Origin: Candidatus Eisenbergiella pullistercoris
Lineage (GTDB): Bacteria > Bacillota > Clostridia > Lachnospirales > Lachnospiraceae
Assembly: GCA_019115665.1 (NCBI GenBank)
Contig: DXDD01000163.1
Span: forward strand, 1-43,319
Reading direction: 5' to 3'
DNA: 43,319 nucleotides
Shown: one piece after another, positions 30,436-37,782 of the stretch
How positions within the stretch are numbered: position 1 is the stretch's first letter
Layout: every line of letters starts with the position of its first letter
Notes under the pieces: generated by a model
Seen by the model: only the letters and a program-made list of their open reading frames with translations
What the model was told of the DNA's origin: nothing
Database searches by the model: none
Translations under genes and position numbers: made by a program

Positions 30436-31644
30436 ATGATCAGCATAGCGGTTTTCGGCTACGGCACCGTAGGAAGCGGCGTTGTGGAGGTAATTGAAAA
30501 AAACAGGGAAGTGATCGATAAAAGGGCGGGAGAGGAGATCCGGGTGAAATATATCCTGGACCTGAGAGACTTTCCCGGAGATCCCTACGCGGACAGAGTG
30601 GTGCATGATGTGAACGTCATCCTGCAGGATCCGGAGGTTTCGATCATCTGCGAGACCATGGGCGGAAACGAGCCTGCCTTTACCTATTCCATGCAGGCTC
30701 TGAAGGCAGGAAAGAGCGTCTGCACCTCCAACAAGGAGCTGGTGGCGAACCATGGAGCCGAGCTGATCCGCACGGCCCGGGAGAACCGCTGCAATTATCT
30801 GTTTGAAGCCAGCGTGGGCGGCGGGATCCCCATCATCCGTCCCCTGAACGTGGCGCTCACGGCGGAAAAGATCGAGCTGATCAGCGGCATCCTGAACGGG
30901 ACCACCAATTACATCCTCACCCATATGGCCGAGGACGGAAGCAGCTTTGAGGAAAGCCTGAAGGAGGCCCAGGAAAAGGGCTATGCGGAGCGCAATCCCG
31001 AAGCGGATGTGGAAGGGTACGACGCCTGCCGCAAGATCGCCATCCTGGCTTCCCTCATGACGGGAAAGACCGTCTGCTATGAGGAGATCCATACGGAAGG
31101 CATCACGAAGATCACCCATGAGGACTTCCTGTACGCGGAGAAAATGAACCTGTTCATCAAGCTGCTGGCAAGGATCCGGGAGCAGGACGGAAAATACTAC
31201 GCCATCGTGGCGCCCTTCCTGATCGGGGAGAAAAACCCGCTCCACAGCGTAAACGATGTGTTCAACGCCATTTTCATCCGGGGAAATACGCTGGGAGATT
31301 CCATGTATTACGGCCGCGGGGCCGGCAAGCTTCCCACGGCGAGCGCCGTGGTCTCCGACGTGATCGACTGCGCCAAGCACGGACATACCCACATCGTCTG
31401 TCTGTGGGAGGAAGAGAAGCTCCCCCTCAGCAGCATCGACGGCTTTTCCAGAAGATTTTTCGTCCGGGCCGCTGAGGGAAGCGAGGAAGCGGCAAGAGAA
31501 CTGTTCGGCGAAATCGAGAGGATCGACGCGGGCGCAGCGGGCGAGTTCGGTTTTGTGACTCCTGCGATTTCCGAGAAGGAATTTGCTGAAAAATGCGCGG
31601 CGCTTCCCGGCTTCATCAGCCGTATCCGGCTGGAGGAGGCCTGA
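30436..31644 (+). CDS. hom: Homoserine dehydrogenase
   Basis: IAVFGYGTVGSGVVEVI, FEASVGGGIPIIRPLN, GILNGTTNYILTHM. Confidence 0.95.
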   Translation: MISIAVFGYGTVGSGVVEVIEKNREVIDKRAGEEIRVKYILDLRDFPGDPYADRVVHDVNVILQDPEVSIICETMGGNEPAFTYSMQALKAGKSVCTSNKELVANHGAELIRTARENRCNYLFEASVGGGIPIIRPLNVALTAEKIELISGILNGTTNYILTHMAEDGSSFEESLKEAQEKGYAERNPEADVEGYDACRKIAILASLMTGKTVCYEEIHTEGITKITHEDFLYAEKMNLFIKLLARIREQDGKYYAIVAPFLIGEKNPLHSVNDVFNAIFIRGNTLGDSMYYGRGAGKLPTASAVVSDVIDCAKHGHTHIVCLWEEEKLPLSSIDGFSRRFFVRAAEGSEEAARELFGEIERIDAGAAGEFGFVTPAISEKEFAEKCAALPGFISRIRLEEA

Positions 31645-31679
31645 ATCGGGGCGGAAGAAGCTTTGGCATGGAGGTAGAG

Positions 31680-32906
31680 ATGAAATATGTGGTAGTGCTG
31701 GGAGACGGGATGGCCGACGAGCCGATCGCCAGGCTGAACGGCCGGACGCCCCTGGCGTATGCGGATACGCCGGCGCTGGATGCGCTGAGCCAAAAATCGG
31801 AGATCGGCATGGTCAGCACGATCCCGGAGGGAATGAAGCCCGGATCGGATACGGCGAACCTTTCCGTCATGGGCTATGATCCGAAAAAATATTATTCCGG
31901 CCGTTCCCCCCTGGAGGCGCTGAGCATCGGCGTCCCCATGAAGGATACGGACATCGCCCTGCGGTGCAATATCGTCACCCTTTCCGGGGAGGAGGGGATC
32001 CCCTTTGCAAAGAGACGGATCCTGGACCACAGCTCCGGAGAGATCGCTACAGAGGACTGCGCCGTCCTGCTGCATGCCGTGATGGAGGAGCTGGACCGGC
32101 CGCCCTATCACTTTTATGTGGGAACCAGCTACCGGCACTGCCTGATCTGGGAAAACGGCCGGGCGGAGGAGCTCACGCCGCCCCATGACATCCTGGGCCG
32201 TGAGATCGGAGCCTATCTCCCCGACGATAAAAAGCTGTATGAGATGATGGTGCGAAGCTATGAGATCCTGAAGGATCATCCCATCAACCAAAGACGCCGG
32301 GAAAAGGGACTGAATCCCGCCAACTGCTGCTGGTTCTGGGGAGCGGGGACCCGCCCGTCCCTGCCCTCTTTTTATGAAAAAACCGGAATGCGCGGCATCA
32401 TGATCTCCGCCGTGGATCTTCTCAAGGGGATCGCCGTGGGAGCGGGAATGGATGTGGCGCATGTGGAAGGCGCAAACGGCGGCCTGGATACCAATTACGA
32501 AGGGAAAACGCAGGCAGCCCTTGACGCGCTGGTCCGGGAAGGTTATGATTTTGCCTATATTCATGTCGAAGCGCCGGACGAGATGGGACATCAGGGCAGC
32601 GTGGAAAAGAAGCTGAAGGCCATTGAATATCTGGATCAGAGGGTGATCGCGCCCCTTACGGCAGGGCTGGACGCCAGCGGCCTGGACTACCGGCTGATGG
32701 TGCTTCCGGATCATCCCACGCCGATCCGCCTGCGCACCCATACGGCGGAAAGCGTTCCTTATCTGATCTATGACAGCACGAACGTGCAGAAGAACGACTG
32801 GAGCTACAATGAGGCGGAGGCCATCCTGAGCGGAAACTTCTTTCCGGAGGGCCCGCAGCTGATGGATCACTTTCTCGGCCTGAAGCAGCCCAGCTACCGG
32901 CTCTGA
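31680..32906 (+). CDS. ApgM-like cofactor-independent phosphoglycerate mutase family / proposed homoserine kinase
   Basis: KYVVVLGDGMADEPI, GMKPGSDTANLSVMGYDP, EAPDEMGHQG, LPDHPTP; located between hom and aspartokinase. Confidence 0.9.
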   Translation: MKYVVVLGDGMADEPIARLNGRTPLAYADTPALDALSQKSEIGMVSTIPEGMKPGSDTANLSVMGYDPKKYYSGRSPLEALSIGVPMKDTDIALRCNIVTLSGEEGIPFAKRRILDHSSGEIATEDCAVLLHAVMEELDRPPYHFYVGTSYRHCLIWENGRAEELTPPHDILGREIGAYLPDDKKLYEMMVRSYEILKDHPINQRRREKGLNPANCCWFWGAGTRPSLPSFYEKTGMRGIMISAVDLLKGIAVGAGMDVAHVEGANGGLDTNYEGKTQAALDALVREGYDFAYIHVEAPDEMGHQGSVEKKLKAIEYLDQRVIAPLTAGLDASGLDYRLMVLPDHPTPIRLRTHTAESVPYLIYDSTNVQKNDWSYNEAEAILSGNFFPEGPQLMDHFLGLKQPSYRL

Positions 32907-33014
32907 GAAAATGGCGTACAGCGCCGCGGCAGCAGAAGAAAATACACCGCGCGCGGACAGGCGGAAACGGAAAGAAAGCCGCTGCCCGCATGCGGCGGGA
33001 GGAGAATTTATATT

Positions 33015-34334
33015 ATGAAAAAAGTGGTAAAATTCGGCGGGAGCTCTCTTGCGAGCGCAGAGCAGTTCAGAAAGGTGAGAAGCATCATCAAGGCGGATCC
33101 GGAAAGGCGCTTTGTGGTGCCCAGCGCTCCCGGAAAGCGCAGCAAGGACGATGAAAAGGTGACGGACATGCTCTACGCCTGCTACGCGCTTGCTGAGGAG
33201 GGAAGCGATTTTTCGGAAAAGCTTTCCGCCATCCGCGCCAGATATGAGGAGATCGTCCAGGGGCTGTCTCTGAAGATATCTCTGGAGGATGAGTTCAAAA
33301 CGATCGAAGAGAATTTTAAGAATAAGGCGGGAAAGGACTACGCCGCTTCCCGCGGAGAATATCTGAACGGCATCCTCATGGCCGCCTATCTGAAGTTCCC
33401 CTTCATCGACGCGGCGGAGGTCATTTTCTTCGACGAAGACGGAAATTTTGACGACTATAAGACGAACCGGGTGATGGCGGAGAGGCTGGAGCAGATGGAC
33501 GCGGCCGTGATCCCCGGCTTTTACGGCTCCATGCCGGACGGAAGCATCAAAACCTTCTCCCGCGGCGGCTCCGACATCACCGGTTCCATCGTTTCCAGGG
33601 CCGTGCATGCGGAGGTGTATGAGAACTGGACGGACGTATCCGGGTTCCTGATCACGGACCCGCGCATCATCCCCAATCCCGTCGGCATCGATACCATCAC
33701 CTACAAGGAGCTGCGGGAGCTTTCCTATATGGGCGCGGGCGTATTGCATGAAGACGCCATTTTCCCCGTGAGAAAGGAAGGGATCCCGATCAACATCCGC
33801 AACACCAACGCCCCGGAGGACAAGGGAACCTGGATCGTGGAGAGCACCTGCCAGAAATCCCGCTTCGTCATTACGGGAATCGCCGGAAAGAAGGGCTTCT
33901 GCTCCGTCAATATTGAAAAGGACATGATGAACGCCGAGATCGGCTTCGGCCGTAAGGTCCTGCAGGCCTTTGAGGACAGCGGCATTTCCTTTGAGCATGT
34001 TCCCTCCGGCATCGACACCATGACCGTATTCGTCCATCAGGATGAATTCATGGACAAGGAGCAGAAGGTAGTTTCCGCCATCCACCGCCTTGCCAGGCCG
34101 GATACCATCGAGATCGAATCCGACCTTGCCCTGATCGCGGTCGTGGGACGCGGCATGAAGTCCACAAGAGGAACCGCCGGACGCATCTTCTCCGCCCTCG
34201 CCCATGCCAACGTCAACGTCAAGATGATCGACCAGGGCTCCTCGGAGCTGAACATCATCATCGGCGTGCGCAACGAGGACTTTGAGGCGGCGATCCGGGC
34301 GATCTACAATATTTTTGTCCTGGTTCAGCTCTGA
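33015..34334 (+). CDS. Aspartate kinase
   Basis: VVKFGGSSLASAEQFRKV, RGGSDITGSI, C-terminal ACT region VVGRGMKSTRGTAGRIFSALAHANVNVKMIDQGSSELNIIIGV. Confidence 0.94.
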   Translation: MKKVVKFGGSSLASAEQFRKVRSIIKADPERRFVVPSAPGKRSKDDEKVTDMLYACYALAEEGSDFSEKLSAIRARYEEIVQGLSLKISLEDEFKTIEENFKNKAGKDYAASRGEYLNGILMAAYLKFPFIDAAEVIFFDEDGNFDDYKTNRVMAERLEQMDAAVIPGFYGSMPDGSIKTFSRGGSDITGSIVSRAVHAEVYENWTDVSGFLITDPRIIPNPVGIDTITYKELRELSYMGAGVLHEDAIFPVRKEGIPINIRNTNAPEDKGTWIVESTCQKSRFVITGIAGKKGFCSVNIEKDMMNAEIGFGRKVLQAFEDSGISFEHVPSGIDTMTVFVHQDEFMDKEQKVVSAIHRLARPDTIEIESDLALIAVVGRGMKSTRGTAGRIFSALAHANVNVKMIDQGSSELNIIIGVRNEDFEAAIRAIYNIFVLVQL

Positions 34335-34392
34335 CCGGGACGGCTGCGGCCCGAAAATGCGGCACACCGGACAGGATACATAGTATCCTGAG

Positions 34393-34445
34393 AGGCCGGG
34401 AGAGGGGATCCATCCGGGATCTTTCCGCTCCCGGCTGTTTCTTTT
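34393..34445 (+). terminator. Probable terminator after aspartate kinase
   Basis: GCCGGGAG ... CTCCCGGC followed by TGTTTCTTTT. Confidence 0.55.
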
Positions 34446-34557
34446 GAATAATTGTCAGATAATTCATTATATTTATAACAAATTATACATAAATATTTTG
34501 GATAGATACAAGATATTAGAAAATAATGTAAAATCAGAAAAAAAGTCAAAATATTTA

Positions 34558-34586
34558 TTGACATTCGGAACCTGCCGGGCTATAAT
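34558..34586 (+). promoter_or_regulatory. Consensus sigma-A promoter for a candidate long ncRNA
   Basis: TTGACA (34558-34563), 17-bp spacer, TATAAT (34581-34586). Confidence 0.8.
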
Positions 34587-34592
34587 GAAGTC

Positions 34593-35350
34593 ACAAACAA
34601 AAAAGAAACGGAAAAATAAAAAAGAAGGAGGTACGGACCACCGAAAACGTAAACCTTATTTCTTAAAAGAAGAAAAGCTTTTAGGAAATCAAAAAAATTT
34701 CATAGGAAAAACCTTAAAGACGGATCGGAAAGAGGAAAAGAATCTCTGAAAAGGAAGGCCTTTGGATGAGAGGAAGAGAATCAGAAGAAACCGGGAACTG
34801 TAAATTGAGATTCTTTTAAAAAACGGACGTTTCCTGAAAGCACCGGGAATGATCTTTATCATCGAAAGAAGAAGACGAAGGTTGACATCTGGAAGGAAAA
34901 AGACATAAGATCGGGTAGCAGAAGGAAGAAGTTGAAAGAAAGATGATCCAGACAGGATCGGATTTCAGGAGAATGGATTCCGAAAAAGGAAAGAAGTTTT
35001 TTAAGGAAGCAATTCCTTAAAGCAAAAGACCAAAATTTATAATAGATGGACTTCAGAGGATCAGGCCTTTTGTTTAGAGGAATCCGTAAAGAGAGGAAAA
35101 GAATCTTTCAGATACGTGAAAATAAAATCTTTAAGGAACGATGCTTATCTAAAACCGAAGCGAAACGAGTACACTTACTTTCGTGACGAAGGATCATCAG
35201 AAGATGAACACCGTTGCAGTACATGAGTACAAAGGTAAGAAGGAGTGGAAAGAAGAGCAGAGGAGAAAAAATGGAGGTACAGGCCATTGGATAGCATAGT
35301 TTGAGAGCGGGTATCAGACATGAAAATGATTGATACCCGCTTCTCTTTGT
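34593..35350 (+). ncRNA. Candidate long structured non-coding RNA (about 750 nt), unassigned family
   Basis: Promoter at the 5' end and terminator-like hairpin at the 3' end; no convincing ORF; internal helices including AAAAGAATCTC/GAGATTCTTTT and TTTAAGGAA-GCAA-TTCCTTAAA. Confidence 0.6.
35303..35348 (+). terminator. 3' hairpin/terminator of the candidate long ncRNA
   Basis: GCGGGTATCA (35307-35316) / TGATACCCGC (35331-35340), extended by GAGA/TCTC, followed by TTCTCTTTGT. Confidence 0.65.
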
Positions 35351-35408
35351 GGTACTCTGACTGTAAAGACATTCGGAGAACGGATGCGGAAAGGTGTGGA
35401 CAGGGATT

Positions 35409-36851
35409 ATGGACCGCAGGGAATGGAGAAGACGGAGGAGACGCAGAAATCAGATGATCGCCTACATCGGTACGGGAGCGCTGCTGGTGGTTCTTGTGTT
35501 CGGCTGCGTTTTTGCTGCCCGCTGTATTTCAGGCGCGGCCAGGGAAGGAGCATCCGGGACGGGAGAAAGCGAGGGAGCAATTCCCGGACAGAACCTGACG
35601 GAAACGGCTTCTTCAGGAAACGGCTTTGGGGATCCCGGCGCAGACGACGGCTCCGGAAATCCGGAAACAGGGGAAAACCCCGGCAGCCCGGCTGACGGAA
35701 ACGCTGACGGAGACCCGAACGCAGAGGAAAGCCTGGAGGATAAGGTGGCCGCGCAGGTGGAGGCCCTGAGCCTGGAGGAGCAGATCGCCGCGCAGGTAGA
35801 AGCCATGAGCCTGGAGGATAAGGTGGCCGGACTGTTTATCGTCACGCCGGAACAGCTGACCGGCGTGGGGACTGCCGTACAGGCGGGAGACAGCACCAGA
35901 GAGGCTCTGCAGCGCTATCCGGTGGGAGGGCTGGTGTATTTTGCCAAAAATATCCAGTCGGCTTCCCAGCTGAAGGAGATGCTGGAAAATACGGCTTCCT
36001 ACAGCAGATATCCGCTGTTTCTGGGCGTGGATGAGGAAGGCGGGCAGGTGGCGCGCGTAGCGGACGGACTGGGCCTTGAAAATGTGGGCCCCATGGCGCA
36101 GATCGGAGCGTCCGGGGACGCTTCGCAGGCGTATGCGGCGGGGGCGCGGATCGGGGCTTATCTGAAGGAATACGGATTCAATCTGGACTTTGCTCCCGTA
36201 GCGGACGTGCTTACCAATCCGGACAATACGGCGATCGGAGACCGTTCCTTTGGAAGCGATCCGGGCGTCGTTTCCGAGATGGTCGCCGCAGCGGTGCGCG
36301 GGCTGAAGGAAAACGGAGTGAGCGCCTGCGTGAAGCATTTTCCCGGACACGGAAACACTGCGGGAGATTCCCACGACGGGCAGGTGGAAACGGACAGGAC
36401 GCTCGAACAGATGCAGACGGCGGAATTCCTTCCTTTTTCGGCAGGCATCGACGCGGGCGCGGATATGGTGATGGCAGGACATATTTCAGCGCCCGGACTG
36501 ACGGACGGGGACAGAATTCCCGCGTCCATGAACGAAACGATCATTACGGGGATCCTGAGAGGACAGCTCGGCTATCAGGGGATCGTGATCACGGATGCCA
36601 TGAACATGTCGGCAATTACCCAGTATTACACGGCGGATGAGGCGGCAGTCCGGGCGCTGAAGGCCGGCGCGGACATGATCCTGATGCCGGAGGATTTTGT
36701 TTCGGCATATGAGGGAGTGCTGGAAGCGGTCCGCAGCGGTGTCATTGACGAGGCAAGGATCAACGATTCCCTGAAGCGGGTGTACCGCGTGAAGTACGCC
36801 GGAATGACGGCCCGGACAGACAGCGCGGAAGCCGCGGAGGAAGCCGGATGA
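35409..36851 (+). CDS. Glycoside hydrolase family 3 (beta-N-acetylhexosaminidase, NagZ-like), membrane-anchored
   Basis: N-terminal TM; LFLGVDEEGGQVARV, GFNLDFAPVADV, CVKHFPGHGNTAGDSH, ITDAMNMSAI. Confidence 0.92.
   Translation: MDRREWRRRRRRRNQMIAYIGTGALLVVLVFGCVFAARCISGAAREGASGTGESEGAIPGQNLTETASSGNGFGDPGADDGSGNPETGENPGSPADGNADGDPNAEESLEDKVAAQVEALSLEEQIAAQVEAMSLEDKVAGLFIVTPEQLTGVGTAVQAGDSTREALQRYPVGGLVYFAKNIQSASQLKEMLENTASYSRYPLFLGVDEEGGQVARVADGLGLENVGPMAQIGASGDASQAYAAGARIGAYLKEYGFNLDFAPVADVLTNPDNTAIGDRSFGSDPGVVSEMVAAAVRGLKENGVSACVKHFPGHGNTAGDSHDGQVETDRTLEQMQTAEFLPFSAGIDAGADMVMAGHISAPGLTDGDRIPASMNETIITGILRGQLGYQGIVITDAMNMSAITQYYTADEAAVRALKAGADMILMPEDFVSAYEGVLEAVRSGVIDEARINDSLKRVYRVKYAGMTARTDSAEAAEEAG
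35730..35840 (+). repeat. 39-bp (13-aa) in-frame repeat at the N-terminus of the GH3 domain
   Basis: SLEDKVAAQVEAL / SLEEQIAAQVEAM / SLEDKVAGLF. Confidence 0.85.
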
Positions 36852-37709: not shown

Positions 37710-37782
37710 GCGATAGTGGCGTAGTTGGTAACGCGCGACCTTGCCAAGGTCGAGACCGCGGGTTCGAGCCCCGTCTATCGCT
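37710..37782 (+). tRNA. tRNA-Gly (anticodon GCC)
   Basis: GCGATAG...CTATCGC acceptor stem, GACCTTGCCAAGGTC anticodon arm, GCGGGTTCGAGCCCCGT T arm; 3' CCA not encoded. Confidence 0.92.

Follow-up and report, generated by a model that had tools for sequence, protein, structure and literature searches.

The window analyzed here is a 43,319-nt stretch of a contig from Candidatus Eisenbergiella pullistercoris (Lachnospiraceae), and positions 34558–35348 of its forward strand, between the aspartate kinase gene (lysC) and a GH3 (nagZ-like) gene, are occupied by an independent RNA gene. An initial annotation had proposed a candidate non-coding RNA with its own promoter and 3′ hairpin at 34558–35350, which our analysis confirms, and had described the region as purine-rich and AT-rich; its GC content is indeed 0.30–0.40 as compared with 0.55–0.62 in the surroundings, with a purine bias on the + strand. 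The gene begins with a sigma-A promoter, TTGACA-N17-TATAAT (34558–34586, + strand; TTGACA at 34558–34563 and TATAAT at 34581–34586), already recognized in that annotation, which matches at 12 of 12 positions and aligns at the same place in 12/12 genus members. Promoter-like sites number 7 in 1.2 kb, compared with 2.1 ± 1.5 in shuffles, and the one at 34558–34586 alone is perfect. Transcription is inferred to start at ~34592, and the predicted transcript of ~757 nt (34591–35348, + strand) has the conserved promoter and a conserved terminator at its limits. The minimum free energy computed for 34593–35348 is −185.4 kcal/mol versus −146.0 ± 6.5 kcal/mol for dinucleotide shuffles (z = −6.0), none of the 20 shuffles being as low. 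Elsewhere in the window, a tRNA gene (37710–37782) lies 2.4 kb downstream of the RNA, and a 1019-aa open frame on the − strand (31308–34367), antisense to the phosphoglycerate-mutase-like and aspartate kinase genes, is probably a spurious high-GC frame.

No long ORF is present in the RNA region, as had been stated; the + strand ORFs inside it span only 46–101 aa and are unconserved, because the indels found throughout the relatives are not multiples of three. What had been missed is a conserved five-codon ORF at 35287–35304, which is the only one to keep its frame. A frameshifted protein homologue, named at the outset as a finding that would refute a non-coding RNA, is not indicated, since no conserved protein frame runs through the region in the nucleotide alignment (BLASTX was not run), and the region does not qualify as a protein-coding gene or pseudogene on that basis. 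One short ORF within the body of the RNA (MNTVAVHEY..., through the module called C below) looked conserved in some species and is broken in others, and the stem that it overlaps accounts for the conservation.

When the region was compared by BLAST with 60 relatives, 11 of the 12 further genomes from the genus contained it, and the matches in the family's other genera were weak and confined to its 5′ and 3′ ends. The genus members, with RNAs of 506–759 nt, share the promoter, the start region, a 5′ block, a ~200-nt 3′ block, and the terminator, and the middle varies; their alignment has a mean column identity of 71% with invariant blocks. The order lysC, RNA, GH3 gene is kept throughout the genus and in at least one other genus (G081). 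Within the genus, the promoter, predicted start, and terminator form one conserved block with the motifs between them, and the same block recurs across the family with a body that shrinks and grows (predicted transcripts of 169–1071 nt); as far as sequence comparison can show, this supports a discrete RNA gene that has a promoter and an intrinsic terminator of its own. Both the conservation among relatives and the covariation described below are of the kind whose absence would have counted against the initial annotation.

For the wider distribution, a pattern of the 3′ end was sought among 85,488 species and returned 85 named stretches, most with titles giving Lachnospiraceae or a genus such as Eisenbergiella, Roseburia, Acetatifactor, Agathobacter, Hungatella, or Butyrivibrio, and the remainder only "Clostridia", "Clostridiales", "Eubacteriales", or "bacterium". 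When 299 Lachnospiraceae genomes, one per genus, were searched with a covariance model built on the 3′ end (R1), it matched 131 of them at E ≤ 0.01 and 78 at E ≤ 1e-5. A refined model (R2) reached E ≤ 1e-5 in only 3 of ~470 order- and class-level genomes outside the family, and 78/299 is therefore the safer figure, the family matches between 1e-5 and 0.01 including chance terminators. The RNA is present in at least a quarter of the sampled Lachnospiraceae genera. The three matches outside the family include one clear chance terminator (L274) and one locus with convincing mini-ORFs (L267, family f8, positions 1020–1580), a distant relative with a promoter-like start and three AUG mini-ORFs, each with a Shine–Dalgarno sequence (SD; MYNE, MDVKASC, and MDDR), the last of which precedes the terminator. 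In 59 family loci with upstream sequence, the best promoter scored at least 11/12 in 57 and 12/12 in 40; these were found by scoring 1.1 kb upstream, and 12/12 in 40/59 is still far beyond chance. Taken at the level of its sequence, this is a new RNA family, chromosomal and largely confined to Lachnospiraceae. It appears to be previously undescribed: literature on Lachnospiraceae non-coding RNA, minigenes, and small ORFs yielded nothing on it, most subscription papers lying outside the coverage of that search.

The most conserved parts of the RNA are its two ends, each resembling a ribosome-binding site and one carrying the tiny ORF; neither is described in the initial annotation. At the 3′ end (all on the + strand), an SD (GGAGG, 35273–35277) and a spacer ending in CCA (together 35273–35286) precede the tiny ORF UUG GAU AGC AUA GUU UGA (MDSIV; 35287–35304), which is conserved family-wide and is followed by an intrinsic terminator hairpin, GCGGGUAUCA/UGAUACCCGC, with a pyrimidine tail (35307–35348). 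The layout SD, spacer, CCA, [A/U]UG, GAY, two codons, GUU, stop is near-universal, and the terminator stem begins almost directly at the stop codon, no more than a couple of bases away. Among 53 genomes, the start is AUG in 36 and UUG in 17, codon 2 is GAC in 24 and GAT in 23, and the in-frame stop (UAG in 28, UAA in 21, UGA in 4) falls at codon 6 in 48, at codon 7 in 4, and at codon 9 in 1, so that each of the five length variants adds 3 or 9 nt, whole codons that preserve the stop. The frequency of the layout is partly by construction, as the model was seeded on such ends; the frame-preserving length changes and the exchange of stop codons are not, and a stop at codon 6 is only slightly more frequent than expected from independent columns. 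Codons 3 to 5 vary, with the nucleotides A-GUU-UAR conserved. Since GUG is absent among the 53 starts and codon 4 almost always ends in A (49/53), part of the constraint, as inferred from these columns, is not that of a translated peptide. The predicted duplex of this SD (type B) with the anti-SD has a free energy of −10.7 kcal/mol in the window and −10.1 kcal/mol on average in the family, compared with −3.3 kcal/mol for random 16-mers of the same RNAs. A proposal that the body sequesters the mini-ORF was rejected: ORF regions pair with their own bodies no better than with other bodies (p = 0.99), and an apparent 9-bp pairing between the two in Eisenbergiella is not general.

The 10-bp terminal hairpin of the initial annotation stands, its 10 pairs being kept in 100% of the genus members and its stem covarying family-wide. 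In an 18-pair model of the 3′ end, of which 15 pairs are the terminator stem, 79 relatives gave 237 doubly changed cells, as compared with 51.5 in shuffles and 21–43 when the pairing was slid. One relative (G015) has a clean U-tract after the terminator on the same strand. A similar 3′ module was also observed on a different RNA in genus g231 (L270 and L277, 1250–1590 in each), which has its own promoter (TTGACA..TATATT) and an unrelated-looking body, without an Rfam match in L270, and ends in GAGG..CCC-UUG-GAA-AAG-CAG-..-stop-terminator; R2 also matches L268, L269, and L271. That the module also occurs with a different body may hint at what the module does.

At the other end, the 5′ site, which we call type A (34627–34652, + strand), consists of an SD (GGAGG, 34627–34631), the spacer UACGGACCA, CCG (34641–34643) in the place of a start codon, AAA ACG, and an in-frame stop, UAA (34650–34652). 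In relatives the SD (AAGGAGGUACGGACCA) is likewise followed by CCN, sometimes AAG or ACA, instead of a start codon, usually with an in-frame stop after it. A strict form of the motif, GGAGGUANRGACCRCCGAANRCRUAA, was matched in 15 of 100 genera and its reversed-pattern control in none, and upstream of the 3′ module 63 sites were found in 53 RNAs, as compared with 4.2 in dinucleotide shuffles. With the codon at the initiation position left free, 61 sites have CCN in 48, AUG in 6, and AAG in 3, with no GUG, UUG, or CUG, and an in-frame stop falls at codon 4 in 55 of 78 sites (a few listed more than once), compared with 7 and 1 in the other frames. Types A and B occupy the same place in different relatives (L122, L137, L154, and L174). 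A distant relative (L273, 850–1580) carries in one RNA four AUG mini-ORFs (MND, MNS, MKI, and MGAIH) and one AAG site, with two pairs of neighboring sites 52 nt apart. Because the codon is mostly CCN and an in-frame stop follows, because the two types interchange, and because L273 and L267 have AUG mini-ORFs, the upstream sites look like mini-ORFs, as judged from their sequence, in which the SD is kept and the start codon avoided.

The position of these sites is also constrained. An upstream site was found by pattern in 49 of 53 RNAs (a few of these sites have AUG), and the first site lies a median of 58 nt from the predicted start, within 120 nt in 43/49. This distance does not correlate with RNA length (rho 0.12, p 0.40) and the gap from the first site to the 3′ module does (rho 0.90); therefore, both ends are fixed and the body is elastic. 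Tandem copies lie 46–57 nt apart in 39 pairs, mostly 51–52 nt, a spacing that is wide enough for neighboring ribosomes, for whose binding there are no data, and the minimal members (L141 and L266) contain little but three or four sites and the terminator. The modeled type A duplex with the anti-SD averages −13.2 kcal/mol versus −3.3 kcal/mol for random 16-mers of the same RNAs, partly by construction, as the pattern used to choose the sites contains AGG. About 20 nt around each SD are conserved. Several other explanations of the site were tried and rejected: a GG-A-GGU/ACC-A-CC hairpin has no internal covariation support and its spacer length is variable; mutual information between the type A tail and the 3′ AGUUUA motif, proposed to pair, is not above that of shuffles; and mimicry of one particular mRNA start site finds no support, because a loose pattern shows no enrichment across the genome.

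The body between the two ends is variable and contains one compensatory hairpin. This lies in module C (35167–35252, + strand), consisting of GAGUACA, a stem of GUGACG (35183–35188) with CGUUGC (35212–35217), a GUAC hairpin (35219–35230), and GUGGAAAG. Module C was found in 36 distinct sequences from several genera, in which all 216 stem cells pair and two-sided changes such as U-A to C-G, A-U to G-C, and C-G to U-A occur; because stem complementarity was a criterion in choosing the candidates, the pairing rate is inflated, but the nucleotide changes do not depend on that choice. The three internal pairings that had been proposed for the body all exist as complementary strings and differ in how relatives treat them. 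AAAAGAATCTC/GAGATTCTTTT (34736–34746/34807–34817) is kept in 93.6% of cells with one-sided changes only, which is neutral; CCTTAAAGA/TCTTTAAGG (34712–34720/35128–35136) is contradicted, four of its nine pairs being broken in 4–5 of 12 species; and the TTTAAGGAA-GCAA hairpin (35000–35021) is 78% kept, a weak support. Over these, RNAalifold on 12 genus members prefers a long-range helix between 34753–34773 and 35066–35085 (+ strand), with compensatory changes on both sides of several pairs. The body has no single conserved ornate fold, given the range of RNA lengths and the contradicted helix.

Firmicutes carry large ornate RNAs of comparable size (OLE, GOLLD, and ROOL), and membership in one of these or in raiA had been raised as a possibility; Rfam models do not support it. 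The suggested Rfam search, run with Rfam 15 over the whole window at gathering thresholds, returned no family apart from the tRNA at 37710–37782; at E ≤ 10, 34400–35450 gave two sub-threshold Yersinia sRNA matches and nothing credible, and twelve relatives gave no match. The OLE covariance model matched neither the window, where the region was scanned directly with cmscan, nor its own genome, and raiA motif RNA (RF03072) had no match, so membership is not met; the genome-wide negatives for OLE and raiA are weak, because control genomes likewise gave none. For ROOL and GOLLD, which are phage or prophage RNAs often near tRNA islands, membership is likewise not met: there was no model match, no exact motif match in viral contigs, and no BLAST match in plasmids. 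The RNA shares with ROOL, GOLLD, OLE, and raiA/ModT its size class, inferred independent transcription, and Firmicutes hosts, but lacks an Rfam match and a single ornate fold through the body. GOLLD has a conserved 3′ region and a variable 5′ region, and its binding to ribosomes has been reported in pull-downs (PMC12286853).

A closer functional parallel is the stabilizing SD (STAB-SD), a non-initiating SD that binds 30S subunits and blocks RNase J1 (PMC4113751); in Bacilli, a strong SD, even without a start codon, stabilizes a long untranslated RNA (PMC3997798). Like the cry3A mRNA of Bacillus thuringiensis and B. subtilis mRNAs of the aprE/gsiB type, the RNA described here has near its 5′ end a strong SD, complementary to the 3′ end of 16S rRNA, without a start codon at initiation distance, and so fits the description in its sequence. 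It differs in that the cry3A STAB-SD belongs to the leader of a protein-coding mRNA and no protein follows here, and in its ~20 nt of additional conserved sequence, in-frame stop, and tandem units of ~51–52 nt. In its inferred function it is closest to STAB-SD leaders, and in size and independence to the large ornate RNAs, of which it is by model not a member.

With a strong SD lacking a start codon at its front and a five-codon mini-gene against its terminator, the RNA is probably, by its sequence features, built to hold ribosomes and not to make protein. Our preferred reading, to which we assign a probability of roughly one half (0.48), is that of an abundant, long-lived RNA whose two ends each dock ribosomal subunits, with a 5′ site that acts like a STAB-SD stabilizer. 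The 30S subunits would bind the 5′ site and be unable to start; stalled there, they would form a roadblock against 5′–3′ decay by RNase J, as at the STAB-SD of cry3A mRNA (the use of RNase J by the hosts is unchecked). Loading of ribosomes is also proposed for the 3′ mini-ORF; its 18 nt are roughly what an initiating ribosome covers downstream, ahead of the terminator hairpin. The outcome would be a long-lived, ribosome-carrying RNA. The promoter, terminator, SDs, avoidance of start codons, and anchoring of both ends can be read from the DNA, whereas transcription, ribosome binding, stability, and function are inferred. The anchoring at the 5′ end, the avoidance of starts with the SD kept, the strength of the SD, the tandem spacing, and the preserved 3′ frame support this docking of ribosomal subunits, as do the conservation and discreteness of the gene, the signs of action in trans given below, and the STAB-SD precedent. 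The predicted accessibility of the 5′ SD counts against it, being no higher than that of the rest of the RNA (mean unpaired probability 0.43 versus 0.54), and a STAB-SD alone, whose function needs little beyond the SD, does not explain the ~20 conserved nucleotides, which suggests a further partner. The share of the constraint at the 3′ ORF that is not peptide-like also weighs against it.

The docking sites could instead be the function in themselves, making the RNA a regulator or ribosome decoy whose one to five SDs titrate free 30S subunits or initiation factors and so shift the choice of translated mRNAs, for instance as cells enter slow growth. The perfect promoter predicts the abundance this would need, the arrays keep their ~51–52-nt spacing, the minimal members L141 and L266 dispense with the body, and the distant relatives L273 and L267 carry several AUG mini-ORFs per RNA. 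We nevertheless consider it unlikely, if worth keeping in mind: most RNAs have only one or two sites, which stay near the 5′ end even in RNAs of 700–1000 nt, the body modules have conserved structure of their own, and a very high copy number would be needed to matter against the ribosome pool. Conservation of ~20 nt around each SD, beyond what ribosome binding needs, together with the fixed spacing of the repeats, could also reflect a protein sponge, in which repeated GAGGUAYRNWCCA binds an RNA-binding protein such as a translational repressor that recognizes a particular start site, by titration as in CsrB/CsrA. Sponges of the CsrB/RsmZ type and type III toxin–antitoxin RNAs are likewise short transcripts in which a motif is repeated and an intrinsic terminator follows; as to the latter, no toxin-like gene was noticed here as a constant neighbor. 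The repeated GGA core of CsrA sites, however, is not kept, GGAGG alternating with AGAGG (GGA enrichment was not computed), and the motif is not enriched as a target elsewhere in its own genome (4 matches versus 1 for the reversed pattern), which leaves the sponge a still weaker candidate.

A dual-function RNA, that encodes the pentapeptide M-D-x-x-V, perhaps as a signal or as a drop-off minigene holding peptidyl-tRNA, would account for the conserved frame and Met-Asp start and for the relatives with several AUG-x-x-stop minigenes. The bar minigenes of phage lambda have a similar arrangement, an SD followed by a mini-ORF of AUG, a few codons, and a stop, but occur in single phage transcripts, whereas here the RNA gene is chromosomal, conserved, and equipped with non-initiating copies. 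We regard a peptide product as very improbable, since codons 3 to 5 vary widely, the AGUUUAR nucleotides are better conserved than the residues, the start codon is lost at most upstream sites, and there is no secretion signal. Equally hard to sustain is a cis-acting leader or attenuator in which the terminator would be masked by a ribosome on the mini-ORF, so that transcription continues into the GH3 gene: the mini-ORF stop abuts the terminator stem, and 14 of 58 loci, that of the window among them, have a GH3 gene next on the same strand (44 nt downstream in the window), yet the next gene is on the opposite strand in 24/58, other neighbors are diverse, and the 3′ module is equally conserved there. 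The mixture of strands (34 same, 24 opposite) and the diversity of neighbors argue for action in trans rather than in cis. Among these loci (L119–L178), 7 have an opposite-strand radical-SAM gene downstream, and the GH3 and radical-SAM settings each tend toward their own body module (the GUAC stem or UGACGAGAAAG).

For the docking of ribosomal subunits at both ends, the main question left is whether ribosomes protect the RNA or the RNA holds ribosomes; the role of the body is unsettled. A more far-reaching possibility, which we consider unlikely, is a new functional class of chromosomal "ribosome-docking RNA", with SD arrays selected not to initiate and a footprint-sized mini-ORF at the terminator, that would store or ration the translation capacity of Lachnospiraceae. 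Provided that it is transcribed, the RNA is both widespread and probably abundant in a dominant family of gut bacteria, and no Rfam family covers it. Its ends point to selection for ribosome binding without a start of translation, which is unusual and directly testable. If true, this would carry the STAB-SD principle beyond the leaders of mRNAs and into a dedicated RNA gene, or bring to light an RNA with the task of rationing ribosomes.
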